This document shows, one piece after another, positions 25,799-63,452 of a stretch of 64,000 nucleotides of DNA. The notes under the pieces are model-generated. The model worked only from the letters and a program-made list of their open reading frames with translations, was not told the origin of the DNA and did not search any database. Origin of the DNA: Marinilabilia salmonicolor JCM 21150 (lineage in GTDB: Bacteria > Bacteroidota > Bacteroidia > Bacteroidales > Marinilabiliaceae); assembly GCF_000259075.1 (NCBI RefSeq), contig NZ_AJKI01000046.1:1-64000 (forward strand). The letters run 5' to 3'. Position 1 is the stretch's first letter; each line of letters begins with the position of its first letter. Made by a program: the position numbers and the translations under genes.

Positions 25799-25963
25799 AG
25801 TGTCCGTCTATAAACTGAGCAAATTCTGTTTTAAGGGCTGTTTCTGGTCAGAAAGTGCCAATTGCTAGGCTTGCGAAGCCGCCAAAAACGGAGTTTACTA
25901 ATCGTAAATGAGTATTTTGGCGGCAAGCGTAACAACGCAAGTGGTACTTTATGGACAGAAACT
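25799..25963 (+). mobile_element. Covarying-hairpin element, copy A (165 bp)
   Basis: Ends AGTGTCCGTCTATAAA and TTTATGGACAGAAACT are inverted repeats, flanked by the 4-bp direct repeat AAAT (25795-25798, 25964-25967). The central hairpin has arms GCCGCCAAAA (25878-25887) and TTTTGGCGGC (25915-25924), the internal loop ACGGAG/TGAGTA and an inner stem TTTAC/GTAAA. A second stem pairs AAAGTGCCA (25852) with TGGTACTTT (25942). Noncoding. It ends 26 bases before the sigma-factor gene. Confidence 0.8.
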
Positions 25964-25989
25964 AAATAAGAAAATCAAATTGATGAGCT

Positions 25990-26511
25990 TTGAAAAAGGA
26001 AGAGTTATTTAATAAAATAGTTGCTGAAAACAGCGACCGTATTCGTCGTATTTGTGCCTACTACAACTCCAATGTTCACGATCAGCAGGATATGTGCCAG
26101 GAAGTGCTCGTTAATATTTGGAAGAGCCTGGATAATTTTCGTGGTGAGGCTGCTGTAAGTACCTGGATATACCGCATCGCTGTGAATACCTCTTTGCAAT
26201 ACACCGGAAAAGCTTACCGGAATATGAAATTATTGGTTTCGGCAGACTCTCTCCATTTGAGCAATGTTCTTGATGATGCAGATCTTATTCACAAAAAGAT
26301 GGAGGAAGACCGGTTTGAGATTCTTCAACGGGAATTAAACTTGTTGTCGGTTGTGGACAAAGCATTGATATCCCTGATGCTTGAAGGGCTATCGATGAGA
26401 GAGATTGCAGAGGTGATAGGAATTACCGAATCTAATGTGAAGACTAAGATTCACCGAATCAAGATTCATTTAAAAAACAAACTAAAACAAAAAGATTATG
26501 TTCCACAATAA
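25990..26511 (+). CDS. ECF-type RNA polymerase sigma factor (173 aa)
   Basis: Region 2 (DRIRRICAYYNSNVHDQQDMCQ, then EVLVNIWKSLDNFRGEAAVSTWIYRIA) and region 4 (helix-turn-helix LSMREIAEVIGITESNVKTK) are complete, so it should direct RNA polymerase to a small regulon. The start must be TTG at 25990, because TGA lies two codons upstream in frame and the next Met is far inside; a short ATG frame at 25983 is out of phase. The next gene overlaps by 14 bases, in the position of an anti-sigma gene. Element copy A lies just upstream. Confidence 0.93.
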   Translation: MKKEELFNKIVAENSDRIRRICAYYNSNVHDQQDMCQEVLVNIWKSLDNFRGEAAVSTWIYRIAVNTSLQYTGKAYRNMKLLVSADSLHLSNVLDDADLIHKKMEEDRFEILQRELNLLSVVDKALISLMLEGLSMREIAEVIGITESNVKTKIHRIKIHLKNKLKQKDYVPQ

Positions 26512-27037
26512 TAATTCATTCTCAGGAATAGATCAGTTAACTGGTAAACTTAAACAGGAAGATCAAAAATACAGTCGTTTAAGTAAGGGGTTTCAAATTG
26601 TTTATTGGGTTTTTGCCTTTTTTTACTTGATTATGCTGATTCTTCATTTTACAGTTGATGTAGTGCCTTTCTCAGATAAAATAAGTGGGGGATTTTGCTT
26701 TATAGCCATGGTAATATTTGCATTATTCTTTAGGAATTATTACCAAGAGTACAAAAATGTGGATTATTCTTTACCTACCCTTATTATGTTGAAGAAAGCT
26801 GCCTATAGATACCAGCCTTTTCAACTCAAAACCGTTTGGATATTTCTTGCTATTATTTTCCTGAATGCCGGATTAAGCTTTGGAACAGTTAATCGTGCTG
26901 ATCTTATTGGGGTGCAGGTAGTTTTTTGGGCATTAATGGGACTCGCCATTGGTATTGGCCTCGTGCGTTGGTATTATAAATATAAGCCTCTTCGTGATGC
27001 CGCTTTAAGAATGATAAAAGAAATTGAAGAGCAATAG
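26498..27037 (+). CDS. Membrane protein coupled to the ECF sigma factor (179 aa)
   Basis: About four transmembrane helices (VYWVFAFFYLIMLILHF, FCFIAMVIFALFF, VWIFLAIIFLNAGL, VVFWALMGLAIGIGLV) with a ~35-residue charged N-terminus and a charged C-terminus. Not recognised as a known family. The 14-base overlap with the sigma gene means translational coupling, so it is a candidate sigma-factor regulator or membrane sensor. It lacks an obvious zinc anti-sigma HxxxCxxC motif. An alternative is a sigma-controlled membrane protein. Confidence 0.8.
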   Translation: MFHNNNSFSGIDQLTGKLKQEDQKYSRLSKGFQIVYWVFAFFYLIMLILHFTVDVVPFSDKISGGFCFIAMVIFALFFRNYYQEYKNVDYSLPTLIMLKKAAYRYQPFQLKTVWIFLAIIFLNAGLSFGTVNRADLIGVQVVFWALMGLAIGIGLVRWYYKYKPLRDAALRMIKEIEEQ

Positions 27038-27259
27038 CCCTTAGCGTTTGACATATTTGTCGATTATACTCATAACCACTGAATAGGATTGTATCGGATA
27101 GTGTAATGTTTTGCAATTTTCCTATTTGTTTACGAATTTTAGTGTTGATATTTTTAACCTGAATTAAAAAAAAGAAGGTGATGGCAATCATTTACTAATG
27201 GTATTATGCTATTTGTTTCTGATAAATATCTGTATATTAATAAAATATATTCTGCGGTT

Positions 27260-29854
27260 ATGATGGGTTCAAACAAAATTTATTTTACACTAACACTGTT
27301 TTTTATGGGACTTTTGGGTTTTACTTCCTGTCAATCCAGGGTGGAAAACCCACCTGTCGAAATTGAGATCAATCAGGGGTGGGAGTTTTCCAAAGCCGGC
27401 TCCGATAGCTGGATGCCCGCCAATGTTCCTGGTACGGTTCATTCCGACCTGCTGGCCAATGACAAAATTGAAGATCCGCATTACCGAAAGAACGAAAACG
27501 ATGTTCAGTGGATTGAAGATGCGGACTGGGTTTACCGAACGTCCTTTGAGGTGGAAAAGAATCTGTTGCCGGCCTCTGATGTGATTGAGCTTCAGCTTGA
27601 AGGTCTGGATACTTATGCAGATGTTTACCTGAACGATAAAAAAATTCTGGAAGCTGACAATATGTTTGTTGGTTACGATCTGGATGTGAAGAAATATCTT
27701 GTTGAAGGAACCAATCATCTTCGCGTATATTTTCATTCTCCGGTAGCAAAGGGGATGGAGAAACTCAATCAACTTGAATATGCCATTCCTGCAATTAATG
27801 AGCAGGCTCCCGAAGGGGAAAGAACCAACGTTTTTACACGCAAAGCTCCTTTCCATTTTGGCTGGGACTGGGGGCCGCGTTTGGTGACTTCCGGAATCTG
27901 GCGTCCGGTGACACTGGTGGCCTGGAATAAAGCCATAATCGATGATGTTTATGTTGTAACGGAAGAGGTCAGTGACAACGTAGCTAAACTTTCGGGAACT
28001 GTTACTCTCGAAACGGAAAAAGCAGGCGAATATCATCTTTCTCTTTCGATAGATGAAAATAGTCCGGTTGTTGAAAAAGCTGTAAATCTTGATGCAGGAA
28101 TCAACAATGTGCCTTTCGAGTTTGAAATTCAAAACCCTCAATTGTGGTGGTCCAATGGTTTGGGCGAACCTTATCTTTACGATTTTAATTTTGCTCTGTC
28201 GTCCAAAAATCAGGTGCTTGATTATCATCAGCTCAATTACGGCGTTCGTACGCTAAAGCTGGTTCAAGAGTCCGATGAGGTTGGTCATTCTTTTTATTTT
28301 GAATTGAACGGAGTCCCTGTTTTCATGAAAGGAGCCAATATTATTCCTCCGGAAACACTGACGCCTGTTGCAGATAAGGCTCGTTACGACCGGTTAATAG
28401 GCAATGCGGTGGCTGCCAATATGAATATGGTGCGTGTTTGGGGCGGTGCCATCTATGGTGAAGACTATCTCTATGATCTATGTGATCGGAACGGAATTCT
28501 GGTGTGGCAGGATTTTATGTTTGCCTGTGCGCTTCAGCCGGGCGATGAGGCCCATCTGGAAAACATAAAAAAAGAGGCGGAGTACAATGTTAAACGTCTG
28601 CGCAATCACCCATCTATTGCGCTTTGGTGCGGGAACAACGAGAACTATCATGGTTGGCACGAATGGGGATGGAGTGAGATGTATGATCCTGATGTAAAAG
28701 AATTTGTCTGGAATACTTACAAGACCATATTTAATCAGATTTTGCCGGATGCGGTTTCGGAATTTGACCCGAAAACCACCTATTGGCCTTCCTCTCCCTT
28801 GGCTTTCGATGGTAGCAAAGCCGATCGGAAATCGGGCGATGAGCACGACTGGACCATCTGGTTCGGTCAAAAGCCATTTTCCGCTTATGGCGAGGACCTG
28901 CCGCGTTTTGTCAGTGAGTATGGTTTGCAATCTTTTCCATCCATCCATACCATCGAAGCTTTCACTGCAGAAGGCGACCGCGACTGGGATACGGAAGTAA
29001 TGCGTCACCGACAGCGTGGGAAAATGCCTTATGTTCGTCCTGATTTTGACGGGAACGACATGATTCGTTGGTATATGGATCAATATTATAATCTCCCCGA
29101 AGATTTTGGAGATTTCGTATATGTGAGTCAGCTACTGCAGGCTAAAGCCTACAAGATGGCGCTGGAAGCCCATCGTCGCAATATGCCGCACACCATGGGA
29201 TCTCTCTATTGGCAGCTTAACGATAGCTGGCCTACGATTTCCTGGTCAACCGTTGATTACTATGGTCGATGGAAGGCCGCGCATTATGCTGTGAGAGATG
29301 CCAATGAAGCCATTATTGTTGCTCCGGTTGAGGAGGAAGGAAGGTTCAGGGTATATGCGGTAAATGATTTGCTTTCTGAAGTTAATGGAGAATTGAATGT
29401 CAGAGTGATGGATTTTTCAGGAAACGAAATCTATAGCAAGGTTGCTGATGTCACCGCTGCCGGCAACTCTTCCGGTTTGGTGTTCGATGAGAATGTCGAT
29501 GATCTGATTGGTAAAGCCGATCGCCGTGAGCTGGTTTTTGTCATTGAGTTTGTTTCCGGAGGGCAGGTAGTGGCAGATAATCTGTATTACCTGCATCGCC
29601 CCAAAGAGTTGAAACTTCCGGAGGCTAAGGTTGAACTCTCCGCGAGGAAAACCGAAGAAGGTTATCAGCTTACCCTTTCATCTGATGTGCTGGCAGGAAA
29701 TGTATTTTTGGATACTCCGGATGGCAATGGATTTTTCACTGATAACTTCTTTGATTTGCTCCCGGGCGAAAGCAAGGTGGTTGATCTGGAGATCAGTAAG
29801 ATATTAGATCCTGAGCAGGATATAAGTATTCTGACGCTTAACCAGGTTCAATAA
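27260..29854 (+). CDS. Beta-mannosidase, GH2 family lipoprotein (865 aa)
   Basis: Releases beta-mannose from manno-oligosaccharides or glycoprotein glycans. The start at 27260 gives a lipoprotein signal peptide (MGLLGFTSC, lipobox Cys), so it is anchored at the envelope; TTA/TTG-rich codons upstream look untranslated. The GH2 order is visible: sugar-binding domain, Ig-like sandwich, TIM barrel with the acid/base Glu in WCGNNEN (~460) and the nucleophile Glu in FVSEYG (~552), and a C-terminal beta domain. WGGAIYGED and WQDFMFAC match beta-mannosidases rather than beta-galactosidases. A strong terminator follows at once. Confidence 0.93.
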   Translation: MMGSNKIYFTLTLFFMGLLGFTSCQSRVENPPVEIEINQGWEFSKAGSDSWMPANVPGTVHSDLLANDKIEDPHYRKNENDVQWIEDADWVYRTSFEVEKNLLPASDVIELQLEGLDTYADVYLNDKKILEADNMFVGYDLDVKKYLVEGTNHLRVYFHSPVAKGMEKLNQLEYAIPAINEQAPEGERTNVFTRKAPFHFGWDWGPRLVTSGIWRPVTLVAWNKAIIDDVYVVTEEVSDNVAKLSGTVTLETEKAGEYHLSLSIDENSPVVEKAVNLDAGINNVPFEFEIQNPQLWWSNGLGEPYLYDFNFALSSKNQVLDYHQLNYGVRTLKLVQESDEVGHSFYFELNGVPVFMKGANIIPPETLTPVADKARYDRLIGNAVAANMNMVRVWGGAIYGEDYLYDLCDRNGILVWQDFMFACALQPGDEAHLENIKKEAEYNVKRLRNHPSIALWCGNNENYHGWHEWGWSEMYDPDVKEFVWNTYKTIFNQILPDAVSEFDPKTTYWPSSPLAFDGSKADRKSGDEHDWTIWFGQKPFSAYGEDLPRFVSEYGLQSFPSIHTIEAFTAEGDRDWDTEVMRHRQRGKMPYVRPDFDGNDMIRWYMDQYYNLPEDFGDFVYVSQLLQAKAYKMALEAHRRNMPHTMGSLYWQLNDSWPTISWSTVDYYGRWKAAHYAVRDANEAIIVAPVEEEGRFRVYAVNDLLSEVNGELNVRVMDFSGNEIYSKVADVTAAGNSSGLVFDENVDDLIGKADRRELVFVIEFVSGGQVVADNLYYLHRPKELKLPEAKVELSARKTEEGYQLTLSSDVLAGNVFLDTPDGNGFFTDNFFDLLPGESKVVDLEISKILDPEQDISILTLNQVQ

Positions 29855-29860
29855 TATAGA

Positions 29861-29899
29861 AAGCGGCGAATTTTTAATGCAGGAATTCGCCGCTTTTTT
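29861..29899 (+). terminator. Intrinsic terminator after the beta-mannosidase
   Basis: Perfect 12-bp stem AAGCGGCGAATT/AATTCGCCGCTT with an 11-base loop, running into a six-T tract. Confidence 0.92.
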
Positions 29900-29928
29900 C
29901 TACTGACTAAAAACTAAAATCTATAACC

Positions 29929-30915
29929 ATGAAAGTCCTTTACATCGGTGGAACCGGAAATATTAGTACAGCATCCAGTCGACTGGCCATAGAAATGGGG
30001 TTTGATTTATATCTGTTGAACCGTGGAACCAGAAAGGTTGAAATCCCGGGAGTAAAGAGTCTGGTCGCCGATCACTCCGATTCGGCGTCTGTAAAAGAAG
30101 CTGTTCAGGGGCATGAGTGGGATGTGGTGGTCAACTGGATTGCGTTTACTGAGCAAGATGTGCAGCGGGATTTTGAGTTGTTTCACGGCAAAACCAGGCA
30201 ATATATCTTCATTAGTACTGCATCTGCTTATCAAAAGCCGGGCGGACATCCTGTAATTACCGAATCAACGCCTCTTTACAATCCTTACTGGCAGTATTCA
30301 CGCGATAAAATTGCCTGTGAAGACTTCCTGATGCGGAAATATCGGGAAGAAGGATTTCCCATAACCATTGTCCGGCCGTCCCATACTTATGATACAGTTA
30401 TACCGGTTCCTTTGTGTGGTTGGAACGATTTTACCATTATCGATCGCATTCGTAAAGGCAAAGAGGTGATTGTTCATGGCGATGGCACTTCTCTGTGGAC
30501 AGTTACCCATTCTGATGATTTTGCCAAAGGATTTAATGGTTTGCTGGGCCATCGTCAGTCCATCGGGCATAGTTTTCACATTACATCGGATGAAATTATG
30601 AACTGGAACCAGATTTTTGAATTGGTAGCCGAAGCAGCCGGAGCCCCACTTAAGGCGGTTCATATTGCATCTGATTTCATTGCCCGATATGATGAGCATT
30701 CGTATGGAGGCTTGTTGGGAGATAAGGCTCAGAGCGTTATTTTCGATAACTCAAAAATAAAACGCTTTGTTCCCGGTTATCATGCAACCATTAAATTTAG
30801 TGAGGGTATTAAAAGAACCATTCGCTGGTTTGAGGAGAAACCGGAACGTATGCAGATGGACCCGGCCAAAGGGCAGTTGGTAGACAGGATTCTTGGTGCT
30901 TACAAATCGTTATAG
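29929..30915 (+). CDS. NAD-dependent epimerase/dehydratase (extended SDR, 328 aa)
   Basis: Rossmann start MKVLYIGGTGNISTASSRLA (Gly-rich NAD site), then FISTASAYQKPGG and the YSRDKIACED segment, where the catalytic Tyr-x3-Lys is YSRDK (Tyr ~124). This resembles the group of NAD-dependent epimerases often found beside glycan genes; substrate not predictable. The gene is separated from the beta-mannosidase by a terminator, so it is an independent unit; the phosphoesterase gene downstream has its own -7 box. Confidence 0.88.
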   Translation: MKVLYIGGTGNISTASSRLAIEMGFDLYLLNRGTRKVEIPGVKSLVADHSDSASVKEAVQGHEWDVVVNWIAFTEQDVQRDFELFHGKTRQYIFISTASAYQKPGGHPVITESTPLYNPYWQYSRDKIACEDFLMRKYREEGFPITIVRPSHTYDTVIPVPLCGWNDFTIIDRIRKGKEVIVHGDGTSLWTVTHSDDFAKGFNGLLGHRQSIGHSFHITSDEIMNWNQIFELVAEAAGAPLKAVHIASDFIARYDEHSYGGLLGDKAQSVIFDNSKIKRFVPGYHATIKFSEGIKRTIRWFEEKPERMQMDPAKGQLVDRILGAYKSL

Positions 30916-30961
30916 ATTTGTTAACTCCTTTTATCGGGTCTTTCCCTGCTTAAAAGTTTTA

Positions 30962-30969
30962 TATATTTG
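30962..30969 (+). promoter_or_regulatory. -7 box TATATTTG before the LpxH-like gene
   Basis: Exact TAnnTTTG 18 bases before the ATG, with TTTC 17 bases upstream of it as a weak -33 box. Confidence 0.5.
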
Positions 30970-30987
30970 TTGCTATAAGCCAGATAT

Positions 30988-31833
30988 ATGAGTGAAAAAA
31001 GACCACTAAAAGCTGTAGTCGTCTCAGATGCACACCTGGGAACGATCAGCAGCAAAGCCAACCAACTTTATGCTTATCTGAAGACCATTCAGCCGGAAAC
31101 ATTGGTGTTGAATGGCGATATTATTGACTTCTGGCGTTTCTCAAAACGTTACTTTCCTGCTTCTCACCTGAGGGTGATTCGTTACCTTTTTAAAATGGCC
31201 GAGACCGGAACGAAAATTATTTTTATTCCCGGGAATCATGATGAGGTAGGACGCCGTTTTACGGGTGTCGATTTTGGCCATCTTCGTATTGACAATAAGG
31301 TTGTGCTTACCCTTGACGGGAAATCTACCTGGATTTTTCATGGAGATGTGTTCGATGTGGTGATGCACCATTCCAAGTGGTTGGCGAAAATGGGAGCCGC
31401 CGGTTACGGAATTCTGGCCGGCATCAATCGCATGGTTAATTCAGTGCTTCGTTTCTTTGGACGCAACCCCATCTCTCTTGCTGCTAAAATAAAGGATAAA
31501 GTCAAAGGTGGGAAAAAAGAGCCGGTAACCAAGTTTGAAGCTATGGTGGCCCGTCTGGGCATTCGTAAAGGTTATCATTATGCCATTTGCGGGCACATTC
31601 ATCGGCCGGCAAAGAAACGTATTAAATCCCCTTCAGGGGCCATCACTTATCTTAATTCGGGAGATTGGGTAGACCATATGACTTCGCTGGAGTACGAAAA
31701 TGAAGACTGGCATTTGAAACACTGGGATGCAAAAGTGGAGACTTCGGTAGAGGATTCTGTGGAAGAGCAAATTCTCTCAGAAACCATTGAAGATGTCTTT
31801 AATCGGGCGTTTAAAGAGATACTGAAAAGCTGA
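30988..31833 (+). CDS. LpxH-like UDP-2,3-diacylglucosamine diphosphatase family (281 aa)
   Basis: Calcineurin-type metallophosphoesterase. The metal-ligand motifs appear in order: VVSDAHLG, LNGDIIDFWR, IPGNHDE, FHGDVFD and CGHIHRP. This matches the LpxH/LpxG-like group, whose best-known role is removing UMP from UDP-2,3-diacylglucosamine in lipid A synthesis. The protein is longer than E. coli LpxH (240 aa) and has a basic segment (GRNPISLAAKIKDKVKGGKK) that could touch the membrane, so another phospho-lipid substrate is possible. Confidence 0.85.
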   Translation: MSEKRPLKAVVVSDAHLGTISSKANQLYAYLKTIQPETLVLNGDIIDFWRFSKRYFPASHLRVIRYLFKMAETGTKIIFIPGNHDEVGRRFTGVDFGHLRIDNKVVLTLDGKSTWIFHGDVFDVVMHHSKWLAKMGAAGYGILAGINRMVNSVLRFFGRNPISLAAKIKDKVKGGKKEPVTKFEAMVARLGIRKGYHYAICGHIHRPAKKRIKSPSGAITYLNSGDWVDHMTSLEYENEDWHLKHWDAKVETSVEDSVEEQILSETIEDVFNRAFKEILKS

Positions 31834-31943
31834 GATAGAAGTCTGACATATAATTTGTTAAAGCTAAAAGTTGAGGGGCTGAAGTAGGTGAGGGTAATGT
31901 TATAGTTTAGTTGTGGTTCAGCTTAAAGAAAAATCCACTTCCA

Positions 31944-31975
31944 ATTGTTTCCTAATTAAGAAACTTGTATCTTCG
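31944..31975 (+). promoter_or_regulatory. Toxin-antitoxin promoter with palindromic operator
   Basis: ATTG (31944-31947) and TATCTTCG (31968-31975, one mismatch to TAnnTTTG) are 20 bases apart. Between them lies the near-perfect palindrome GTTTCCTAATTAAGAAAC (31947-31964, 16 of 18 bases symmetric). A HigA-type repressor bound there would block the promoter; this is inference from position. Confidence 0.55.
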
Positions 31976-31988
31976 TATAAAAAGATGA

Positions 31989-32336
31989 ATGAATAAGAAG
32001 TTTAAAATTGAACTACTTGGGGAAGCGATTGATTTCGTTGAATCTCTGGATGATAAAACGAGAGAAAAAATCCTCTATAACGCTAGGAAAGCCCAAATAG
32101 TAAATGACCCAGAATTATTCAAGAAACTAAATGATTTGATTTGGGAACTAAGAACCAAATACAATAAGAATCAATACCGACTTCTTGCATTTTGGGATAA
32201 AACGGAAAATGAAGAAACGTTAGTTTTGGCAACTCATGGATTTGTTAAGAAAACGCAGAAAACCCCAAAAGGAGAAATAAAAAAAGCAGAAGAAATACGG
32301 AAAGAATATTTTGAACAAAAAAATAACGGGTTATGA
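31989..32336 (+). CDS. RelE/ParE-superfamily toxin, HigB-like (115 aa)
   Basis: Small basic protein with the RelE-fold pattern: EAIDFVESLDDKTREKILYN helices, ELRTKYNKNQYRLLAFWD strands (the Tyr-Arg-Leu run is typical) and the late THGFVKKTQKTP motif found in phage-derived Gp49-like/HigB toxins. Such toxins are ribosome-dependent mRNA nucleases. The gene precedes the antitoxin and overlaps it by four bases (ATGA), the HigBA order. Both genes are distinctly AT-rich compared with their neighbours, which fits horizontal transfer. Confidence 0.9.
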   Translation: MNKKFKIELLGEAIDFVESLDDKTREKILYNARKAQIVNDPELFKKLNDLIWELRTKYNKNQYRLLAFWDKTENEETLVLATHGFVKKTQKTPKGEIKKAEEIRKEYFEQKNNGL

Positions 32337-32662
32337 AAAGCGATAGATTAAGAAAGAAAAGCCTTGACGAAATGATTGATAAGCACATCGGCGAGATTGG
32401 CACTGAGAAACGGGATAATTTTGAAGAAGAACTTCGTCTTGATATTTTGGGGCAGACAATAAGAAGAATACGAGAAGACAAACATTTGACACAAGCTCAA
32501 CTTGGAGAAATGATTGGTGTGAAAAAAGCCCAAATTTCTAAAATTGAAAATAATCTAACAGACGCACGATTTGAAACAATTTTAAAGGTATTCAGAGCAT
32601 TGAATGCAAAAATCAATTTTAATGTAGAATTGATGAATCAGAAAATCCAATTTGAACAATAA
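32333..32662 (+). CDS. XRE-family antitoxin, HigA-like (109 aa)
   Basis: A ~45-residue N-terminal helical region, probably the toxin-binding part, precedes a clear XRE helix-turn-helix: LTQAQLGEMIGVKKAQISKI. The C-terminus FRALNAKINFNVEL resembles other HigA proteins. It should neutralise the upstream toxin and repress the operon at the palindrome 31947-31964. The 202 bases after it (32663-32864) hold no gene or clear terminator. Confidence 0.9.
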   Translation: MKSDRLRKKSLDEMIDKHIGEIGTEKRDNFEEELRLDILGQTIRRIREDKHLTQAQLGEMIGVKKAQISKIENNLTDARFETILKVFRALNAKINFNVELMNQKIQFEQ

Positions 32663-32864
32663 AAAGCCGAAACCACAACAAAGCTATCATCTGCCAGCCT
32701 TGGCATTTAAAGCCTATTTAGGTTTTGTTTTACCTATAACCATGCGTTCAAGTTTATAAAGTCACAGCTAGCCTGGAAACCCCGTCCAGGGGCGTACAGC
32801 CGCGACATTTTCTGCCTTTAAGCATAAACTCTCATAAAATAAATGAGCAAAATGAAGAAAGCTC

Positions 32865-33680
32865 CTAACCTTGTTCATGCAAAATTAACATTGGATGGTG
32901 CGGATGTCTCACCATTTTTTTGATGATGTGAGGATTGAAGATGCGTTGGAAAAAACTGTGGTGATGCCTGATCAGTGTCAGCAGGGTTGCATCGTTTTCA
33001 TCCATGAATTTTAATATGCTTTTACATAAATCTCCCTCATTGTCGATGAAGTGAAAACTGAGTTTTATACCAGGAAAATGAGCTGCAATCTTTTCTTCAG
33101 CCTCAATACGGTTAATATATTCCTCTTCCAGCACATTCAGAAATAAGAGTTCACTGTTGTAGGCTTTAATGAGGTGGGTGAGCGGCCCCACCATTTTGGA
33201 AATGTCCACATCTTTAAGGTCTGTGGCAAAAGCGATTTTGTCGGGTGCCTCGAATCTTGCTTCTTTGGGAACTACCAGCATAGGAAAATGGACGTGTTTG
33301 ATGATTTCAAGCGCAGTACTTCCCAACAGGAAGTGTTCCAGGGCGCTTTCTCCTTTGCAGCCCAATATAATTATTTCCGGTTCGTAGTCGTTGATCTCTT
33401 TCTTTAAAACTTCTGTCATGGCTCCAAATCTGGAAGCCAGTTCTATGCGTGCATTTGGGAATTTGGCATGAAGCAGGGACAGTTCTTTTCGCAAACCGCG
33501 CATGCTTTCTTCAGCCATTTCTTCTTTTACCTGCATGATGTAGGGACTGCCACTGAATTCAACATCATAAATATTCAGCAATTCAAAATGTGCCTGTTCT
33601 TTTTCAAACATTTTCAGTGCATAGATAGCTGCATTCCGGGCAATCTCCGAAAAGTCGGTAAGGAGTAATACACGTCTCAT
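32865..33680 (-). CDS. Universal stress protein, two UspA domains (271 aa)
   Basis: Two tandem UspA folds: the first starts MRRVLLLTDFSEIARNAAIY and has ILGCKGESALEHFLLGSTAL, the G-2x-G-9x-G(S/T) nucleotide site, near residues 105-125. The second starts DKIAFATDLKD and lacks a clear copy of this site. Tandem Usp proteins of ~270-280 aa are common in Bacteroidota and may bind ATP/AMP. ATG 33680 is chosen; a GTG at 33728 preceded by AGGAGG would add 16 residues outside the domain and cannot be excluded. Confidence 0.9.
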   Translation of the reverse strand: MRRVLLLTDFSEIARNAAIYALKMFEKEQAHFELLNIYDVEFSGSPYIMQVKEEMAEESMRGLRKELSLLHAKFPNARIELASRFGAMTEVLKKEINDYEPEIIILGCKGESALEHFLLGSTALEIIKHVHFPMLVVPKEARFEAPDKIAFATDLKDVDISKMVGPLTHLIKAYNSELLFLNVLEEEYINRIEAEEKIAAHFPGIKLSFHFIDNEGDLCKSILKFMDENDATLLTLIRHHHSFFQRIFNPHIIKKMVRHPHHPMLILHEQG

Positions 33681-33889
33681 AGGTCTGGTATTTTGAGGGT
33701 AAAACAATTCAGGCTTGCGCTTTTCCACTCACTGAACAACACCTCCTATCGGTTCAGTGTCATAAAATTTACGAAAAATTTCTTTTAAAGGAAAGTTTGA
33801 AGTGTAAGAATTTTTTGTTTTCCAAAAGAACTTTGGATCTTAGAACTTTGAAGGGTAAGCCTGCAATGGGATGACGATATTGGTGGTTC

Positions 33890-34249: not shown

Positions 34250-34273
34250 GGTTGTGTGGCTTTTGTGTCTGGG

Positions 34274-43492: not shown

Positions 43493-43691
43493 AGGGTCTG
43501 TCCATAAACTAAGCGTTTTTCACGTGTTTGAGATAGAAAGTTCAAATTCAAGGCGTGTGAAAAATCTAAACCGCAGTCCCGAAGTAGCTTTTGTAAGGTT
43601 TTTTAAACAAAAAACCAACAAAAAGCACAATCGGGATGAGTATTTAGATTTTGAGCAACAACGCAGAAGTTGGACTTTATAGACAAACACT
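43493..43691 (+). mobile_element. Covarying-hairpin element, copy C (199 bp)
   Basis: Ends AGGGTCTGTCCATAAACTAA and ATAGACAAACACT form terminal inverted repeats; flanks ACTT/ACTC agree in three of four bases. The central hairpin arms are AAAATCTAAA (43561-43570) and TTTAGATTTT (43643-43652), with loop CCGCAG/TGAGTA, inner stem TCCCGA/TCGGGA and a further GGTTTTTT/AAAAAACC stem. The second stem is AAAGTTCAA (43537) with TTGGACTTT (43670). It ends 2 bases before the SDR stop codon. Confidence 0.78.
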
Positions 43692-51065: not shown

Positions 51066-51071
51066 TGTCTA

Positions 51072-55233: not shown

Positions 55234-55247
55234 AGATTTTGTGTGTT

Positions 55248-56114
55248 TTAATGAATTGGAAAAACAGCCCATTTCTCCACATTGAAATGGCTGGCTATTT
55301 CCTGATGTTTTTCATCAGGTGCTGCGATGAGGGCAGTTGATAAAACCTCCGCCTCAGTGGCACTTTCACTCTGAACGACTGCGGTAAACGAGGGGGGACA
55401 ATCTCCCGTTTTGGGATTCAGGATGTGTGGCGTTTTTCCACTCCCATGGCCGGCACAGCTGACAGAAACGGTATCATTTCTCAGTGGCCAGATTTCTCCT
55501 TCAATTTCCTGATTCTTTAATGAAAAAGGCCAGTGATTACCATGTGGATGATGTCCGCGGGTTAGAATGGAACTGCCTCCAAAACTGATAAATGTATTTT
55601 TAATGCCAAATTCATCCAATATCTTCGAAGTTTCATCCAATGCCAATCCTTTTCCTATCCCTCCGAAATCCAGGGATACGGCAGGATGAAGAAACTGTAT
55701 GGTATTATTTGACGTATTTATTTTAATGAGATCTTCCGGAGGATGAATGGGAAGGGAACTTTCTGAAAATGCACTCTTTTCTTTTAAGGAGGCATAAACT
55801 TTTCCGGCAAATACATTGAAATAGCCCTCCGACTTTTGAATATATTTCATGCCGTTGCTGATGGTTTTAAAGAGAAACGGGCTGATAGCCATGCTTTTAG
55901 AAAAGGCATTTTTGTTAACCTTAAAAGTTTCGGCTTCTGAATTGAATCGATCCAGAATGGTTTGTAATTCCATAATTTGGGTGACTACTTTTTCAGTCAC
56001 CTGATCAGCCAATTCCTGATTAATACCCCAAAAGACGATGTCCAGCGGGGTATTCATCAGAAAAGCAGTTTTGTGATGTATGTTATCAGAATTTTGGTTC
56101 CCAGCCTTTTTCAT
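55248..56114 (-). CDS. ApbE-like FAD:protein FMN transferase, divergent (288 aa)
   Basis: The ApbE pattern is recognisable: GYFNVFAG (for GxFDPTVG), SLDFGGIGKGLALDET (FAD-binding), FISFGGSSILTRG (for NIGGDI), HILNPKTG (for HIIDPRTG) and ATEAEVLSTAL (for ADALATAL, where Glu replaces the metal-binding Asp). It has no signal peptide or lipobox, so it would act in the cytosol. ApbE proteins attach FMN to Ser/Thr in a target protein; no obvious flavinylation target lies in the window. The start overlaps the upstream Gfo/Idh gene by 29 bases, so translation is coupled. Two Asp changes leave activity uncertain. Confidence 0.8.
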   Translation of the reverse strand: MKKAGNQNSDNIHHKTAFLMNTPLDIVFWGINQELADQVTEKVVTQIMELQTILDRFNSEAETFKVNKNAFSKSMAISPFLFKTISNGMKYIQKSEGYFNVFAGKVYASLKEKSAFSESSLPIHPPEDLIKINTSNNTIQFLHPAVSLDFGGIGKGLALDETSKILDEFGIKNTFISFGGSSILTRGHHPHGNHWPFSLKNQEIEGEIWPLRNDTVSVSCAGHGSGKTPHILNPKTGDCPPSFTAVVQSESATEAEVLSTALIAAPDEKHQEIASHFNVEKWAVFPIH

Positions 56115-57435
56115 AAGTTCTTTCCCATAATTCCATCGCTTTGTAACTATTGGTAATGTGCCCGTTTTTAGGGTCGCATATCAGCGACTCCCCGGTACGC
56201 GAAGAGATGTTGGCCAAATGTCCAAGTAGCGTACTGGTGGCTCCCTCATCAATTGGGGAACGCAAATCTTCTTTGCCCCTGATGGCTTCAAAGAAATTTT
56301 GGGCATGCAGGGTTGACATATCGCCACCGCCTCCCAGTTGCGTGCCACCCTCACTACTGCCTGATTGTTTCTCCCTGATTAGCGAGCCGTTGCGGTCAAA
56401 CAGCTTGTAACCTCCACGGTCAACCCACACACTACCTTCAGTACCATAAATGATGGTTCCACGTCCGGCGCCATAGGTTTTCTGAGCGTTTCGACTCTTG
56501 CCATCCCATTGAATCATTTTATTTCCGGGAAAACGAAAGGTGGCATCCATGGTGTCATACATCGTCCAGCCATCATCCGGCCAGTGATATTTGCCTGAGT
56601 TGACCATTACTGCTTCGGGGAAGCTGACTTGCAGAGCCCAGCGTGCCACATCCAGTTCATGTACGGCATTGTTGCCTGTTTCGGCGGTACCATAATCCCA
56701 TCCATACCAGTGCCAGTTGTAGTCCCAGGTGTTGTGCTCGTAAGCTTTCCGGGGTGCCGGTCCCTGCCACAATTCCCAGTTCAGACCTTCCGGAGGAGCT
56801 GCTTTGGTGGGATTGACGACCCTTCCGCGCCCATTGCTGTAAAAGGCTTTGGCCATGTAAGGTTTGCCAATAGCTCCATTGTGGATTTCTTTGATGATTT
56901 CGATGGTTTCGATTGAGGATCTCTGTTGGTTACCCATTTGTATGACCTTCCCGTAGCGGTCGCGCGACTTTACAAGTAATTCACCTTCGTAAGGGTTGTG
57001 ACTGCAGGGTTTTTCCACATACACATGTTTCCCGGCAGCATTGGCAAGCCAGGTTCCGGGTGCGTGCCAGTGATCGGGGGTGGCCAGAAATATGGCATCC
57101 ACATCTTTGTCGTCAATTACTTTGAAGAAATCTTCTTCAAGTGTTGGTCTGTAATCAAGGACTTCCCCAAATCTTTTGGCTGCATTGTCCATCTGACTTT
57201 GCATCACGTCGCACAGATACAGTAAGCGGACATTGCTTTTTGGGTCGGCAATAGGGGGAATGTAGGCTCCTAACCGGCGACCCAGGCCAATAATGGCCAC
57301 ATTCAGCCGGTCGTTGGCTCCCATTATTCCGGCATAGCTTTTAGAGCTCATACCCATTCCGGCTATCGTGAGCCCTGCAGCACCCAAAGCCGATTTTTTG
57401 ATGAATTCTCTTCTTGAGTTTTTATTCTTTTTCAT
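56086..57435 (-). CDS. TAT-exported Gfo/Idh/MocA-family oxidoreductase 1 (449 aa)
   Basis: Twin-arginine signal NSRREFIKKSALGAAGL at residues 6-22. Rossmann motif VAIIGLGRRLGAYIPPI, then ATPDHWHAPGTWLANAAGKH and the intact EKPCSH motif (Lys of EKP binds cofactor/substrate). The middle part AVHELDVARWAL carries the catalytic-domain His. The size and motifs match the large TAT Gfo/Idh proteins found beside DUF1080 genes in Bacteroidota. The likely role is oxidation or re-reduction of the C3 hydroxyl of a glycoside in the periplasm. Start 57435 is chosen to place the TAT motif properly; element copy D lies upstream. Confidence 0.9.
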   Translation of the reverse strand: MKKNKNSRREFIKKSALGAAGLTIAGMGMSSKSYAGIMGANDRLNVAIIGLGRRLGAYIPPIADPKSNVRLLYLCDVMQSQMDNAAKRFGEVLDYRPTLEEDFFKVIDDKDVDAIFLATPDHWHAPGTWLANAAGKHVYVEKPCSHNPYEGELLVKSRDRYGKVIQMGNQQRSSIETIEIIKEIHNGAIGKPYMAKAFYSNGRGRVVNPTKAAPPEGLNWELWQGPAPRKAYEHNTWDYNWHWYGWDYGTAETGNNAVHELDVARWALQVSFPEAVMVNSGKYHWPDDGWTMYDTMDATFRFPGNKMIQWDGKSRNAQKTYGAGRGTIIYGTEGSVWVDRGGYKLFDRNGSLIREKQSGSSEGGTQLGGGGDMSTLHAQNFFEAIRGKEDLRSPIDEGATSTLLGHLANISSRTGESLICDPKNGHITNSYKAMELWERTYEKGWEPKF

Positions 57436-57487
57436 GGTTTTGGTTTTATTGGATGATGAAAATAGGTTTGCATAAGGATTCTTAGTT

Positions 57488-57652
57488 AGTGTCTGTCCAT
57501 AAAGTACCATTTACTGCGTTACGCTTGTCCGAAAAGTACTCATTTACGAAAAGTAAACTCCGTATTTTCGGACTTCGCAAGCCTTGTAACTGGCACTTTC
57601 TGAACAGACACAGCCCTAAAAACAGAATTTGCTTAGTTTATAGACAGGCACT
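57488..57652 (-). mobile_element. Covarying-hairpin element, copy D (165 bp)
   Basis: Terminal inverted repeats AGTGTCTGTCCATAAA and TTTATAGACAGGCACT are flanked by the 4-bp direct repeat AGTT (57484-57487, 57653-57656). Hairpin arms GTCCGAAAA (57527-57535) and TTTTCGGAC (57565-57573) enclose the conserved loop TACGGAG/TGAGTAC on the minus strand and inner stem TTTAC/GTAAA. Same length as copy A, opposite orientation. Between it and the DUF1080 gene is an ACTACTGACTACTGACTACT simple repeat. The gap 57436-57730 has no gene. Confidence 0.8.
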
Positions 57653-57730
57653 AGTTAGTATGTTGTGTCTTACAATTTCAACTACTTACTACTAACTACT
57701 GACTACTGACTACTTAATACCGACTATATC

Positions 57731-59125
57731 CTACTGACTAATTTCTTTTATCTTAATATTCTTAAACTCCACCTCATTGCCATGATCCTGAAGCAGGATG
57801 TTTCCTTTTTCATATTCACCAAAGTCAGGCCACTTGCTATATTTACTGTAAGCTACCAGCGCACGCCACATTGGGGTGTCACGTTCGTACTCCACGACTT
57901 TGATGCCGTTAAGGAAATGCTGAACTTTTTTACCATTTACCACAATCATCGCCCGGTTCCATTTGTCATAACCATTGACATATTTCTCGCGGGGTAAGTG
58001 GGGATTGTATTCATAGCCGTTAGCTTTGATGAGATCATACAGGGAAGCCATGGTACGGTTTCCTTCCACTCCCAGTTTTGCGTCGGGATGATGCTCGTCA
58101 TCAAGAATCTGGAATTCGCAACCAATGGAAGAGCCTTCCCCTTTGTTTAGCTCAGTATCCACAAAATACTTGATGCCGCTGTTGGCCCCTTTTGTGATGC
58201 TGAAATCTACAATCAGGATGAAATCTGCGTATTGCTTTTGGGTGACAATGTCTCCACCATTTGCAGATTCATCGCCTCCTGAGGCGTGAACTTTCAGGAT
58301 TCCATCATTGATGCTCCAACCGTCTTTTGGGAAATGATCCAGTTTGGCGCCCCGCCAGCCCCTGGTGGTTTCTCCGTCCCACAATAATTCCCATCCATCG
58401 GTTCTTTCGCGTTCTGTAAGCTGATTTTTCAGATAGCTTACTTCCGGAGCTTCCATTTTTTTGTATTCCTCAAAGTCTCTTTCGGTTATTTCTTTAAGTC
58501 GGATGTTTTTCCATCTTATTTTTTTGCCTTCCAGCGCCTTGTTATTACCGATACTATGTACCTGCAGTGCTATGAAACCGGTTTCAATATCCTCTTCAAC
58601 AAGGTTGGAGGCAGGTACGCCATTAACCCAGGTCATAATATGATGATCGAAAGCAACCACTTTAAAGGTGTTCCATTCACCTTTTTTAAAAGCATCTTTG
58701 GCTTCGGGGTTGTAATCCAACGGGTAGCGCCACCCTTTCCGGGCTTCGTCATAGATACCGCCGGCCCATGCACGTTTCGAATCTTCACATTCCACCTGAG
58801 GGCCGTGTACGCGTCCGTTGTTATAATCTTTGTTGCTATGGCTTCGAATTTGAACGCCCGAATTCAATCCCTCATCCATTTTCATGTCGTATTCCAGAAT
58901 GAAATTGGCGTACTCTTTTTTGGTGGTAAGGAATGTATTGGGAGATTTAGTAACCGATGTTCCAACAATCATTCCATCTTCCACATCGTAAGGGGCATGC
59001 CCGTTCAGTACTTCCCAGCCCCGGAGGTTTTTTCCGTTAAAAAGTTCTTTCCAGTCGCTTTGGGCATTTGCGCCGATGACTGACATGAAAAGAATTACAG
59101 ATAAAAGAGAAAGACATTTTTTCAT
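57731..59125 (-). CDS. Tandem DUF1080 (3-keto-disaccharide hydrolase/lyase) protein (464 aa)
   Basis: A signal peptide (1-21, VIGANAQ) precedes two DUF1080 beta-sandwich domains: the first begins [19 protein letters not shown] and contains SGVQIRSHS, the second begins [13 protein letters not shown] (~residue 240) and contains [11 protein letters not shown]. The first domain has [14 protein letters not shown] and [12 protein letters not shown], the second [18 protein letters not shown]1080 members cleave glycosides after oxidation at C3, by beta-elimination or hydrolysis. Two domains in one chain suggests one active and one binding copy, or two reactions. It is the first gene of the cluster, divergent from the hybrid regulator. 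Confidence 0.9.
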
Positions 59126-59245
59126 AGTTCTTCTTTTTAGTTTTATTTTGTGAAGGCAATTTAAGTATTGTTAATCCCGGGGAGGGGACGATTTTGTGTC
59201 AAAACAGGATGGGATTGATTCATGTATCAGATGATCAGGTGAATA

Positions 59246-62200
59246 ATGAAACTTTTCTTTGTAATAGTGTTGCTGTCTTTTTTGTCGGAACTGGTTTTTG
59301 CTCAAACACCAAGGTTCGACCATTTTGATATTTCTACCGGGTTATCTCAGAATAACATTAATGGTCTTGTTATCGATGACAAAGGAAATATTTGGGCAGG
59401 GACACTTGATGGACTGAATAAATATGACGGATATAACTTTGAGATCTTTAAACCAGGGGCTGATCAGGATGGAGAAATTTCAGGGAATCATATTGTCTCG
59501 ATGGGTAAGGGAATGGATGGAGATGTCTGGGTAACCACGCGGGAAGGAGATTTGAATCAGTATCTGGCATCGTCAAAGAAGTTTCGAAGATTTAGTCAGA
59601 AAATTTTTGAGGATGTGGGGATTTTTCCGGAGGATAATATTTGGCAATTCAATGATTCTTTGGTTTGGTTTAGCCAGGGAGACAGGACAGGTGTTATAAA
59701 TATTCATTCAGATCAATGTAATACGTTTGGAGCACCCGGCTATGTAAGCGGAATTAATCAGAATGGGGATACACTCCTGATTTATGGTGACTTTGGCATT
59801 CAGCAATGGGTTATTGGTGGTGCTGAACAGTCGCTCAGGAGGAATCCTGAAATAGTTTCTTCATTTCCCTGCTACTTTTTGGAAAAGAGAGAGGGCCATT
59901 GGTTGGCCGTTTCAGGGGATGGGGTATATTATTTGGAGGACGAAACAGATATAGGAGAACGCGTTTTTAGTTTCCCTGAAGCCGGCCTTTCTGATGTAGA
60001 TCCTTCAACATTTACCAGTTTCGCAGCTTTTAATGAAGATTTTTGGATTGGGGGATTTAATTTGTTGGTTCGCATTCAAAAGAAAGGTGGCAAATGGAGT
60101 TCGGAAAGGTTTTCTTATGCTGCTGAAAATGAAAATACATTTAAAGGTTATAATGTAACTCATCTTCAATTCGACAGGCTGGGGAATCTATGGATTGGAA
60201 CTCAGAAAAACGGGATTAACCATTTCAACTATGAGAAAAACCAGTTTATGCATTACAACTGGAATGCCCCATTAAGCAGACCTGATGCCGATCCTGTCAG
60301 GGCTATTTGTCGTAGGGAAAACGGTGAATTATGGCTGGGGTTTGACAGGAATGGCGTGGGAATCATTTTTCCCGACGGACATCAGAAATATTTTAGTCAC
60401 TATCATACCAAGGATGGGGAAACCAGTCCTATACACAATGTGCGATCCATATTTGAGGACTCCCAAGGCAATGTTTGGATTGGAGAATTGGGCGAGTTGT
60501 GTGTTTACAATGAAAAAGCACAACGCATCGAGGCGGTTGATTTGCGTTTCAACTGGAAGTGGCCGCATCAGAGTTATGTGATCAAGGAATGGGACAGGGG
60601 CACTTTGATGGTGACTTCTTCCTGGAATATCGGGTGGATAAATCTGGAATCGATGGCTCTGGACAGGGGTATCAACCTTAACGAGAATGAAGGGTATCTG
60701 TCGGGAAGTCTCAGAGATATTGTAAGGGATGAGAATGGCCACTATTGGGTGGCAAAGGATGAGAACGGACTTTTCCAGGTTGACCAGTGGAACAAACGAT
60801 TTAAGAAGGTTCAGAAAGAATCGCATAAGCTGTCGGATAACAAAGTGTATTGTATGGCGGTTGACGGTGACAGTTTGTGGATTGGTACCAATTCAGGTCT
60901 AAACCTCCTCAGTCGGACAAAAGGACAAGTAGAAAAAAAGTATTTTGAGCAGGATGGATTAAGCAATAATATTATCTACAGTCTTAACATTGACTCTTCA
61001 GGAATTATTTGGATGAGTACCAATAGGGGAATTAGCAGGTTTAATCCTGTTTCCGGGGCCTTTAAAACTTATTTGTCCAATGATTTTTTCATGGATGATG
61101 CCCATTTTGTGAATGATTCCGGCCAAATCTACTATGGTGGCTATACCGGAGTTGTTGGGTTTCACCCTGATGATATTGTTCCGCTTCGTGTCAGGGTCAG
61201 GGCTACTTTGGAGAGCTTTATGTTGTACAACCGGCTAATTATGCCCGGAGATACAGTGAACAGAAGGATCTTGTTGAATAAACCTCTGGGGGAAACCTCC
61301 GGAATGAAGCTTCGGTATGATGAGAATTCATTTGCCATACATTTTAATGCCTATCCATTTGACGTGCCCAATCAAAATGTATATCGCTACCGGTTGGCCG
61401 GACTGCAGGATGAATGGACCGTTTCTGAGGCAACCAACCGGCAAGCCCGATATGCGGCCGTTCCTCCGGGTGATTATACTTTTGAAGTTCAGGCCGCATT
61501 TAGTCATGCCGATTATGGACCGGTAACGTGTTTGGATATTGAAATTATTCCTCCGTTTTGGCAAACGGGATGGTTTAAATCGTTATTGGTGCTGCTTCTG
61601 CTCGCCTTTGTTTTTGCAGGTTACCAAATACGATTGCGACAAATTCGTAAGCGCAATATTTTACTGAAAAAACGAGTGGAGGAGCAAACACGTGAATTAA
61701 GAGACCGCAACAGGCAAATTGTGGAAATTTCGGAAAAACTCCATGAGGCAGATCAGTCAAAACTCCGGTTCTTTACCAATATTTCTCATGATTTCCGCAC
61801 ACCTCTGACCTTGATTCTTGCTCATCTGGATAGCTTTGGCAATGCGAGAAGTAAAGCAGTAAAAACTATTCGCAATAATGCGCTTCGCCTCCTCAATTTA
61901 ATTAATCAGCTGATAGATCTTCGGAAGCTGGATCAAGGCGAATTGGCGATTTCCATCTCCCGGTTTGATATTGTGGCTTTTGCCGCCGGGGTCGTGGACT
62001 CGTTCCAGGTTTTGGCATCTAAAAAAGGGGTTGATCTTGGTTTCTACAGTTCCGTGGATTTACTGGAGGTTTGGTTGGATATCGATAAAACAGAGAAGAT
62101 TCTCTACAATTTGCTTGCCAATGCTTTGAAATATACGCCGGGTGGCAGATCGATTCTGGTGAGTGTGGCAGAGAATGCCGACCGGTTTTCTTTGGTTGTT

Positions 62201-63262
62201 CAGGATCAGGGCATGGGAATGTCAGAAGAAGAGGTGTCGAATGCTTTTGATCGTTTTTTCCGTTCTGAAAAGGGGCAGGAACACGCATCAGGCCATGGAA
62301 TCGGTCTGACAATTGTGAAAGGACTCACCGAAATTCAGCAAGGAACTATTCATGTTGAAAGTGTGGTGGAGAAAGGTTCTGAGTTTATTTTGACCTTTTT
62401 GAAAGGTAGAGAACACTTTTCAGAACATGATTTTAAAAACGTTAATGAAGAACCGGTATTCCGGGAAGAAAATGCTGTTTCTGTTTCAGATAATAACGGG
62501 TTTTCAAAGTTTGGGGGCCAGAATATTTTGGTAGTGGAGGACAATAATGAGCTTTCTGAGTTTCTGAGAGGCTTGTTGAATATCTGGTTTAATGTAAAGG
62601 TTGCTGAGAATGGGCGGGAAGCCTTTGAGATAATGAACGATTTTACGCCGGATTTGATTATTTCTGATGTAATGATGCCCGTAATGGATGGAATAGAATT
62701 TTGTCGCAAAGTAAAGGCAGACATCCGGACTTCCCACATTCCTTTTATTTTGTTGACGGCGCGTACAGATGCCGAAACGCATATTGAAGGATTTGAATTG
62801 GGCGTGGATGATTACATCGAAAAACCCTTCAACAGCCGGATATTGTTGGCCCGGTTGAAAGCATTACTCGAAAACCGCGAAAAGTTGAAGCGGCATTTTG
62901 AAAACCTGTCTCAAAAAATCATTCCCGGAGAAGTTCTTGCCAAAAGAGACCAGTCATTTATTGAATCGGTCAACAAGATTATCGAAAACCGGTATGCTGA
63001 AGCCGATTTTGGTGTGGAAATACTCAGTTTTGAGATGAATATGAGCCGCTCCACTTTTTACCGCAAATTTAAAGCATTAACAGGGGTTTCAGCGGCCGAT
63101 TATCTTCGAAAAATCCGGTTACATAAGGCGGCAGGTTATTTGCAGCAGGAGGACATTCCCGTTTCTCTGGTGGCTGAACGGGTAGGTTTTCAGAGTGTTT
63201 CCCATTTTCGAAAATGCTTTAAAGAAGAGTTCGGGGAAACACCAGGTGTTTGGGGAAGATAA
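59246..63262 (+). CDS. Hybrid two-component system sensor/regulator (1338 aa)
   Basis: One-protein signalling system of Bacteroidota. Order: signal peptide (1-19), two-component-regulator propeller repeats in the periplasm (for example GNIWAGTLDGLNKYD, GNLWIGTQKNGI, DSLWIGTNSGLN), a Y_Y_Y domain (about 690-770), one transmembrane helix (~775-797), histidine kinase with FTNISHDFRTPL (His ~848) and GHGIGLTIVKGL, a receiver with ISDVMMPVMDG (Asp ~1139) and a C-terminal AraC helix-turn-helix (~1240-1338). It should sense a glycan fragment and activate the divergent DUF1080-Gfo/Idh cluster. No SusC/D is near, so the target differs from a usual PUL. Confidence 0.95.
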   Translation: MKLFFVIVLLSFLSELVFAQTPRFDHFDISTGLSQNNINGLVIDDKGNIWAGTLDGLNKYDGYNFEIFKPGADQDGEISGNHIVSMGKGMDGDVWVTTREGDLNQYLASSKKFRRFSQKIFEDVGIFPEDNIWQFNDSLVWFSQGDRTGVINIHSDQCNTFGAPGYVSGINQNGDTLLIYGDFGIQQWVIGGAEQSLRRNPEIVSSFPCYFLEKREGHWLAVSGDGVYYLEDETDIGERVFSFPEAGLSDVDPSTFTSFAAFNEDFWIGGFNLLVRIQKKGGKWSSERFSYAAENENTFKGYNVTHLQFDRLGNLWIGTQKNGINHFNYEKNQFMHYNWNAPLSRPDADPVRAICRRENGELWLGFDRNGVGIIFPDGHQKYFSHYHTKDGETSPIHNVRSIFEDSQGNVWIGELGELCVYNEKAQRIEAVDLRFNWKWPHQSYVIKEWDRGTLMVTSSWNIGWINLESMALDRGINLNENEGYLSGSLRDIVRDENGHYWVAKDENGLFQVDQWNKRFKKVQKESHKLSDNKVYCMAVDGDSLWIGTNSGLNLLSRTKGQVEKKYFEQDGLSNNIIYSLNIDSSGIIWMSTNRGISRFNPVSGAFKTYLSNDFFMDDAHFVNDSGQIYYGGYTGVVGFHPDDIVPLRVRVRATLESFMLYNRLIMPGDTVNRRILLNKPLGETSGMKLRYDENSFAIHFNAYPFDVPNQNVYRYRLAGLQDEWTVSEATNRQARYAAVPPGDYTFEVQAAFSHADYGPVTCLDIEIIPPFWQTGWFKSLLVLLLLAFVFAGYQIRLRQIRKRNILLKKRVEEQTRELRDRNRQIVEISEKLHEADQSKLRFFTNISHDFRTPLTLILAHLDSFGNARSKAVKTIRNNALRLLNLINQLIDLRKLDQGELAISISRFDIVAFAAGVVDSFQVLASKKGVDLGFYSSVDLLEVWLDIDKTEKILYNLLANALKYTPGGRSILVSVAENADRFSLVVQDQGMGMSEEEVSNAFDRFFRSEKGQEHASGHGIGLTIVKGLTEIQQGTIHVESVVEKGSEFILTFLKGREHFSEHDFKNVNEEPVFREENAVSVSDNNGFSKFGGQNILVVEDNNELSEFLRGLLNIWFNVKVAENGREAFEIMNDFTPDLIISDVMMPVMDGIEFCRKVKADIRTSHIPFILLTARTDAETHIEGFELGVDDYIEKPFNSRILLARLKALLENREKLKRHFENLSQKIIPGEVLAKRDQSFIESVNKIIENRYAEADFGVEILSFEMNMSRSTFYRKFKALTGVSAADYLRKIRLHKAAGYLQQEDIPVSLVAERVGFQSVSHFRKCFKEEFGETPGVWGR

Positions 63263-63264
63263 TT

Positions 63265-63452
63265 AATGCCTGTCCATAAACTAAGCAAAATTTGTTTTTG
63301 ATCATGTGTTTGTCAAGAAAGTGCCAGTTGCAAAGCCTGCCCCGATATTTTTCGGCGGCTTGCCATTCCCGGAAATGCGGAGCTTACCTGAGTAAATGAG
63401 GGGTTTCCGGGAATGGCATAACGCAGTAAATGGTACTTTATGGAGAGACATT
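63265..63452 (+). mobile_element. Covarying-hairpin element, copy E (188 bp)
   Basis: Ends AATGCCTGTCCATAAA and TTTATGGAGAGACATT. The 14-bp hairpin GCCATTCCCGGAAA (63362-63375)/TTTCCGGGAATGGC (63404-63417) encloses the loop TGCGGAG/TGAGGGG and inner stem TTAC/GTAA. It fills the whole gap between the regulator stop and sbcC; its last base is the first base of the sbcC stop triplet. No target duplication is seen (AATT and TATA). Confidence 0.75.

Follow-up and report, generated by a model that had tools for sequence, protein, structure and literature searches.

A family of short mobile elements with a covarying, self-complementary body in Marinilabilia salmonicolor and other bacteria

The window, by which is meant the whole 64,000-nucleotide stretch analysed here (positions 1 to 64,000 of contig NZ_AJKI01000046.1 of Marinilabilia salmonicolor JCM 21150), contains four copies of a short repeated element, situated between called open reading frames (ORFs) or at the edge of one (Table 1). 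A preliminary description of this DNA had reported four copies with self-complementary arms, and all of these are present in the window sequence. The elements are shorter than 500 bp, end in terminal inverted repeats (TIRs) and occur in many copies, as do miniature inverted-repeat transposable elements (MITEs). Elements with this type of body are called rods below, after the shape that one strand is predicted to adopt.

Mobility and covariation of the element

The family is abundant in the 4.98-Mb genome. The TIR decamer TGTCYATAAA has 308 matches (161 + 147), against 59 (32 + 27) for the reversed pattern, and searches with copies 1, 4 and 2 as queries gave 45, 50 and 55 matches, the best 40 candidates being scored for each. 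Full-length relatives of copy 1 are 81-100% identical to it. The spacing of TIR pairs clusters near 153, at 164-165, at 188 and at 216-238 bp, and there is a 199-bp form. Subfamilies are distinguished by the inner module, which is long in copy 2 and short (AATAC-TAAT-GTATT) in its near relatives, and at three loci (L073, L087 and L090) arms of one type are joined to the inner module of another. Across loci L061-L090 the modules AATAC..GTATT, TTTAC..GTAAA or one of 60 nt are swapped among subfamilies within a fixed CRNAG/TGAG frame.

The elements are mobile, as seen from their target duplications and from an empty site. A perfect 6-bp flanking duplication is present in 24 of 40 distinct elements from the stretches of this genome that were analysed, where 3.2 would be expected with right flanks shuffled among copies, and TANNTA is found at 29/40 left and 29/40 right flanks. 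Among the window copies the duplication is perfect for copies 1 and 3, matches at five of six positions for copy 2 and was not seen for copy 4. At the one site tested, that of copy 1, G037 and G039 out of four sister genomes are empty and carry a single AACTAAATA; the matches listed included no such site for the other two (G036 and G038). The target is regenerated by the end of the element, in keeping with the tandem and nested copies that were found.

Inside the TIRs, which differ, lies a core of the form CAAGGC-arm-AAAA-N-CGGAG-stem-TGAG-N-A-TTTT-arm'-AACGC. A covariance model of it (R1) was built from 28 cores, namely copies 1 and 3 and 26 cores from other genomes that were picked for completeness from 40 listed (two of them extended), and it recovered all four window copies. 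In this set 13 of the 22 pairs vary on both sides, with a score of 0.384 compared with 0.123 after shuffling, and none of 500 shuffles scored as high. Extending the set to 83 cores (R1 matches at E 0.01 from 78 chosen loci, in a model-fitted alignment that leans towards the model) raised this to 19 of 22 pairs, with a score of 0.403 against 0.121 shuffled, above 500/500 shuffles and against at most 0.064 for slid pairings. The covariation extends over the whole element. A set of 24 element-length sequences was taken from Gammaproteobacteria and Nitrosomonadales, out of 26 elements that had been located and 27 wanted. Aligned with MAFFT without structure, these sequences vary on both sides at 27 of 41 pairs, pair in 96% of cells and score above 500/500 shuffles; a slide of 1-3 columns lowers the score from 0.512 to at most 0.094. 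The structure tested was derived by hand from L166 and checked on L221, which gives it an advantage over the slid pairings. The TIRs themselves take part, with 14 of the 15 pairs of the TIR stem showing change on both sides. Conservation is 93-100% at positions outside the stems, namely GGA facing GA, the A before X and after Y, and AGG and AAC below. In an ungapped 9-bp arm test, all nine positions paired in 34 of 117 instances, as against 33 of 2340 after shuffling of the 3' arm. Stability was compared with that of shuffled sequences for copies 1 and 4: copy 1 has fold z-scores of -5.8 (plus strand) and -4.4 (minus strand) as RNA, and copy 4 one of -4.8 as DNA, with 0/200 shuffles as stable in each case.

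The stems, including that formed by the TIRs, thus change with compensation while the loops stay. That the element is mobile and that its interior is self-complementary and covaries, as had been proposed, is borne out by the target duplications, the empty site and covariation above that of shuffled sequences. The covariance-model check that the preliminary description had suggested for compensatory stems with kept loops likewise yielded many covarying pairs and further copies, and none of the outcomes it had listed against itself (no further copies, no covariation, duplications of a known MITE) occurred.

Distribution of the core and variety of the ends

The exact core pattern was found in at least 117 stretches of genomes in the GTDB collection, in which about 0.1 match was estimated to arise by chance. 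Cultured organisms with the core include Pseudomonas, Stutzerimonas, Halomonas, Salinicola, Marinomonas, Nitrosomonas europaea, Marinilabilia salmonicolor and Anaerophaga thermohalophila. It is also present in metagenome-assembled genomes (MAGs) labelled as Alistipes, Tannerellaceae, Lentimicrobiaceae, Mariprofundales, Desulfobacteraceae, Acidobacteriota, Mucispirillum and Oligoflexia, labels that may reflect binning errors. The core is therefore common to two phyla (Pseudomonadota and Bacteroidota) in cultured species, and to more if the MAG labels hold. Among mobile replicons, 8 of 72,556 plasmid records match a Pseudomonas rod, and two patterns had 3 and 1 matches in viral contigs; phages had no match with copy 1, and E. 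coli genomes none with an N. europaea rod.

Within the bacterial family of the source genome, a match is present in 22 of 71 genomes (the source genome, G000, included) and in 9 of 21 genera. Elements of Marinilabilia and Anaerophaga carry the same right end and arms as the window copies, and two loci (L097 and L105) retain ends like theirs, while in most of the more distant genera the centre alone matches, inside other ends. Two further candidate cores, L100 (G017) and L110 (G056), were rejected on inspection. A phylum-wide search with R1 (394 genomes, E 0.01, strict filters) found matches in 39 genomes, with between 1 and at least 12 per genome: G000, one member of family f25, and 37 genomes of 1.6-3 Mb from genera g81 and g86 of family f19. 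In family f19, 25 of 27 instances have C-G as the pair adjoining CGGAG, and the other two have A opposite G. Short cores without an arm stem also exist (L170, L173 and L186), in which CAAGGC/AACGC stacks directly on the CGGAG/TGAG loop; L170 and L186 (Mariprofundales MAG) have three model matches each.

Collinear bodies bear unrelated ends. One rod TIR, CTAG-CAGGCCGTTGAAAAA, also forms both ends of ISPst12, again with CTAG as the flank. Another, GAGACCTTTGCACGA, equals one end of an IS5 element in Moraxella and of an ISAba23-family IS5 element in Acinetobacter, the other end of these elements differing by one base and reading GAAACC... By eye, ISPsy19- and ISPsy2-like ends in the table of PMC3189936 resemble two further rod TIR types. 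On a single chromosome of Salinicola tamaricis, two rods (L167 and L194) share near-identical body segments and have unrelated TIRs and arms.

Interpretation and competing explanations

These observations probably describe a MITE-like superfamily of non-autonomous, IS5-type elements with exchangeable ends, the folded body of which would be under selection while they move or amplify. One strand would form a rod in which conserved, purine-rich internal loops separate three to four stems, with the TIR as the outermost stem. An IS5-family transposase supplied in trans would perform the cutting and joining, and the elements would change transposase by swapping the outer stem. Since the structure is kept across spreading lineages and lost in resident copies, the folded form would act at transposition or copying. 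Most likely, folding of one strand, for example as single-stranded DNA (ssDNA) of the lagging strand, or extrusion as a cruciform would join both TIRs as one duplex end, and either a host factor or a conserved transposase surface would recognise the loops. Such DNA folding, as ssDNA or as a cruciform, is more likely than RNA as the folded form. Where the preliminary description had left a choice between a structured RNA, a single-strand recombination site and a transposon end, the last applies to the outer repeat, which acts as one, and the interior is something more.

Several observations weigh against this explanation. Perfect duplications are missing from 16 of the 40 elements, and the duplication here is 6 bp long, unlike the 4-bp CTAG of ISPst12. 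Of the 117 instances in the 9-bp arm test, 57 had a score of no more than 6, partly through bulges or a missing arm (L170 and L173), and stem compensation could arise by hairpin-templated repair without selection. A transposase with the TIR of the window copies was not found: the flanks of three DDE_Tnp_1 genes in G000 are without it, DUF772 loci in relatives show only similar sequences, such as AGTCTGTCTAAAAAC, and 0.86 Mb scanned for TIR pairs up to 3.5 kb apart gave no convincing gene-bearing copy. No core was seen in the IS5 elements whose TIRs match, and IS5 transposition as such therefore does not depend on it. All 5 genomes of the genus have Y1 transposase matches, which makes another enzyme possible. 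DUF772 transposases had no match in G000, and one window-type TIR decamer lies inside an ORF of L277. TIR pairs more than 600 bp apart had one end with three mismatches or shared with a short copy, and are chance-like; the 17 cores in this genome split by more than 90 bp showed no pattern.

A more specific version is tentative and rather doubtful, namely that rods are widespread satellites of IS5-family transposons in bacteria, which adopt the TIRs of a resident transposase and whose loops improve mobility over that of the parent insertion sequence (IS) by presenting both ends folded as one duplex. If true, this would be an element transposed by a DDE enzyme with a folded strand as the substrate.

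Strong loop conservation would also be expected of a structured noncoding RNA, the transcript of which would fold and act in trans or in cis (in an untranslated region, in stability or in termination) while mobility spreads it. Non-Watson-Crick pairs across lineages lean in the direction that RNA would predict, with G-T (G-U in RNA) exceeding A-C by 13:3 in the arms and 6:1 at the pair adjoining CGGAG (117 instances) and by 74:49 in the TIR stem, and 79 of 83 cores retain a G-T pair at the closing position of the inner stem. The lean is not robust: a recount of 55 distinct arm pairs matching at 7/10 positions or more, drawn from the 117 instances and three viral contigs, gave 16:12 for 10-bp arms, and strand asymmetry was dropped as proof of RNA. 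In resident copies of three subfamilies (71, 49 and 15 copies), 200 broken pairs had gone to G-T and 192 to A-C. Orientation relative to flanking genes is without bias (20/20/15/24 of the 79 scored among 91 named instances, 10 others lying inside ORFs of at least 90 aa and 2 at edges), and a cis-regulatory RNA was rejected for this reason. Because resident copies lose pairing equally to G-T and A-C and are found in every gene orientation, the fold does not seem to be maintained at the resident site. There is no terminator-like site at copy 1. The sole Rfam match at gathering score in the window is a tRNA, and E-value searches of 17 other loci gave weak matches that fall outside the core or score far below the family cut-offs. 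An RNA is on balance an unlikely explanation.

The equal decay of pairing in resident copies, which resembles that of neutral DNA, would suit ordinary type II MITEs. Their stems would be matched by hairpin-templated repair, and their loops would be conserved through youth and horizontal spread; MITEs with IS5-type TIRs and unrelated bodies are described for P. gingivalis and P. syringae in passages of PMC4596501 and PMC3189936. Hairpin-templated repair may indeed help to keep the arms matched. It would not be expected to keep mismatched, unpaired loops, since repair across a hairpin should erase them, and youth cannot explain both loops that are 93-100% conserved and stems that vary on both sides across phyla, so that we find it quite improbable that these are ordinary MITEs.

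MITEPsy1 (PMC3189936) and BrickBuilt (PMC4596501) are, in the passages concerned, like the rods in being small, non-coding and mobile, with IS5-family TIRs and a target duplication. According to the same part of PMC3189936, MITEPsy1 moved in a trap and ISPsy2, its likely parent, was not seen moving. Unlike the rods, MITEPsy1 (L327) has no CGGAG/TGAG core and a weak fold (z -2.2 and -1.0), and the bodies of BrickBuilt are described in PMC4596501 as tandem repeats. The passages on the two elements describe no common core under different TIRs.

That the rods are elements resembling repetitive extragenic palindromes (REPs), moved as folded ssDNA by a Y1 (RAYT-type) transposase, is very improbable: the hairpin architecture and the Y1_Tnp matches in every genome of the genus, seven of them in G000 including fragments, would fit, but none of the 5 Y1 loci examined, out of 25 matches listed, has a core nearby (one has a lone TGTCAATAAA), target duplications, which are not expected from HUH enzymes, are present, and size and TIRs are unlike those of REPs. 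The rods resemble REP/REPIN-RAYT systems as intergenic, multi-copy palindromes moved by a separate enzyme, and differ from them in their long rod, TIRs and target duplications, and in having no Y1 linkage in those five loci. IS200-like Y1 genes or fragments are present in G000 at L363 (C30:7177-7521) and in six other places, with no rods beside those examined.

A conserved folded strand of variable stem sequence is also characteristic of integron attC sites and of the attC-like OTH-22-1 motif, as presented in part of PMC8632094. Two observations speak against an integron-type site: mirrored RYYYAAC/GTTRRRY R boxes occur in 0/111 elements (0/111 also when shuffled), and the rods have target duplications. 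Among published kinds, the closest is the mobile/repeat sequence candidate class represented by MRSC-65-2, for which the relevant section of PMC11109978 gives a covarying stem of great length, copy numbers that often reach dozens per genome, and diverse phyla; it is thought to be selfish, and the choice between RNA and DNA is left open there. The repeated UYCCGG of MRSC-65-2, as given in that section, occurs at least once in 6 of 111 rods, twice in 3, and in 0/25 from family f19. Another MRSC motif of PMC11109978 might equal the present element, the comparison covering MRSC-65-2 alone. Structured mobile repeats are thus a known kind, and no published description of this core was found, supplements and subscription papers aside.

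MITE-like elements are usually described species by species through their ends, and here one foldable body is common to phyla. Because that body is shared while ends and stems are replaced with compensation, the conservation sits where a TIR-based reading would not look. With the covariance model, any genome can be searched for the family. The family also offers a concrete test case for whether DNA or RNA folding helps non-autonomous elements to outcompete their parent IS, a question prompted by the movement of MITEPsy1 where none of ISPsy2 was seen (PMC3189936).

The window copies and their neighbours

Table 1. Positions and supporting evidence for the four elements and their parts in the window
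Feature	Position	Strand	Evidence
Copy 1, element body from TIR to TIR	25800..25962	+	Sequence; relatives in the genome; empty site in two sister genomes
Copy 1, left target duplication TAAATA, within AACTAAATA	25794..25799	.	Sequence; AACTAAATA single in the empty site
Copy 1, right target duplication TAAATA	25963..25968	.	Sequence; empty site
Copy 1, covarying core, arms GCCGCCAAAA/TTTTGGCGGC	25865..25937	+	R1 E 1e-13; copy included in the model
Copy 2, element body with long inner module	43494..43690	+	Flanks TACTTA/TACTCA, 5/6 equal
Copy 2, covarying core, arms AAAATCTAAA/TTTAGATTTT, inner TCCCGA/TCGGGA	43549..43666	+	R1 E 6e-4; outside the model
Copy 3, element body	57489..57651	-	Perfect TAGTTA flanks (57483-57488 and 57652-57657)
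Copy 3, covarying core, arms GTCCGAAAA/TTTTCGGAC	57514..57586	-	R1 E 2e-15; copy included in the model
Copy 4, element body with extra inserted hairpin	63266..63452	+	Left flank TAATTA; right duplication not clear
Copy 4, covarying core, arms GCCATTCCCGGAAA/TTTCCGGGAATGGC	63354..63426	+	R1 E 1.3e-6; outside the model

The arms and partners given for the individual copies in the preliminary description stand, and three details are amended here. Copy 3 lies on the minus strand. The loop TGAGTA, which had been taken as kept throughout, reads TGAGGG in copy 4. The first A of the left ends given for copies 1 and 2 suits the duplicated target better than the element.

Copy 4 contains (window 63320-63360) an extra hairpin resembling GCCTGCCCCGAT...TCGGGGC, which is also inside L072 and L013, and L098 has one like it. 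This hairpin may be a small repeat in its own right; an exact pattern for it had 0 matches in the window. This copy is flanked by a two-component regulator ORF and by the end of an SbcC-like ORF (63452-63970). SbcC is elsewhere a subunit of a hairpin nuclease, and its position here is probably a coincidence.

Copy 1 lies 27 bp upstream of an ORF (25990-26511) for a sigma factor of the extracytoplasmic function type, with sigma-70 region 2 and region 4 domains, and its insertion may change expression of this gene. The called start (57510) of an oxidoreductase ORF (56086-57510) falls within copy 3, and therefore the true start probably lies downstream or was changed by the insertion.

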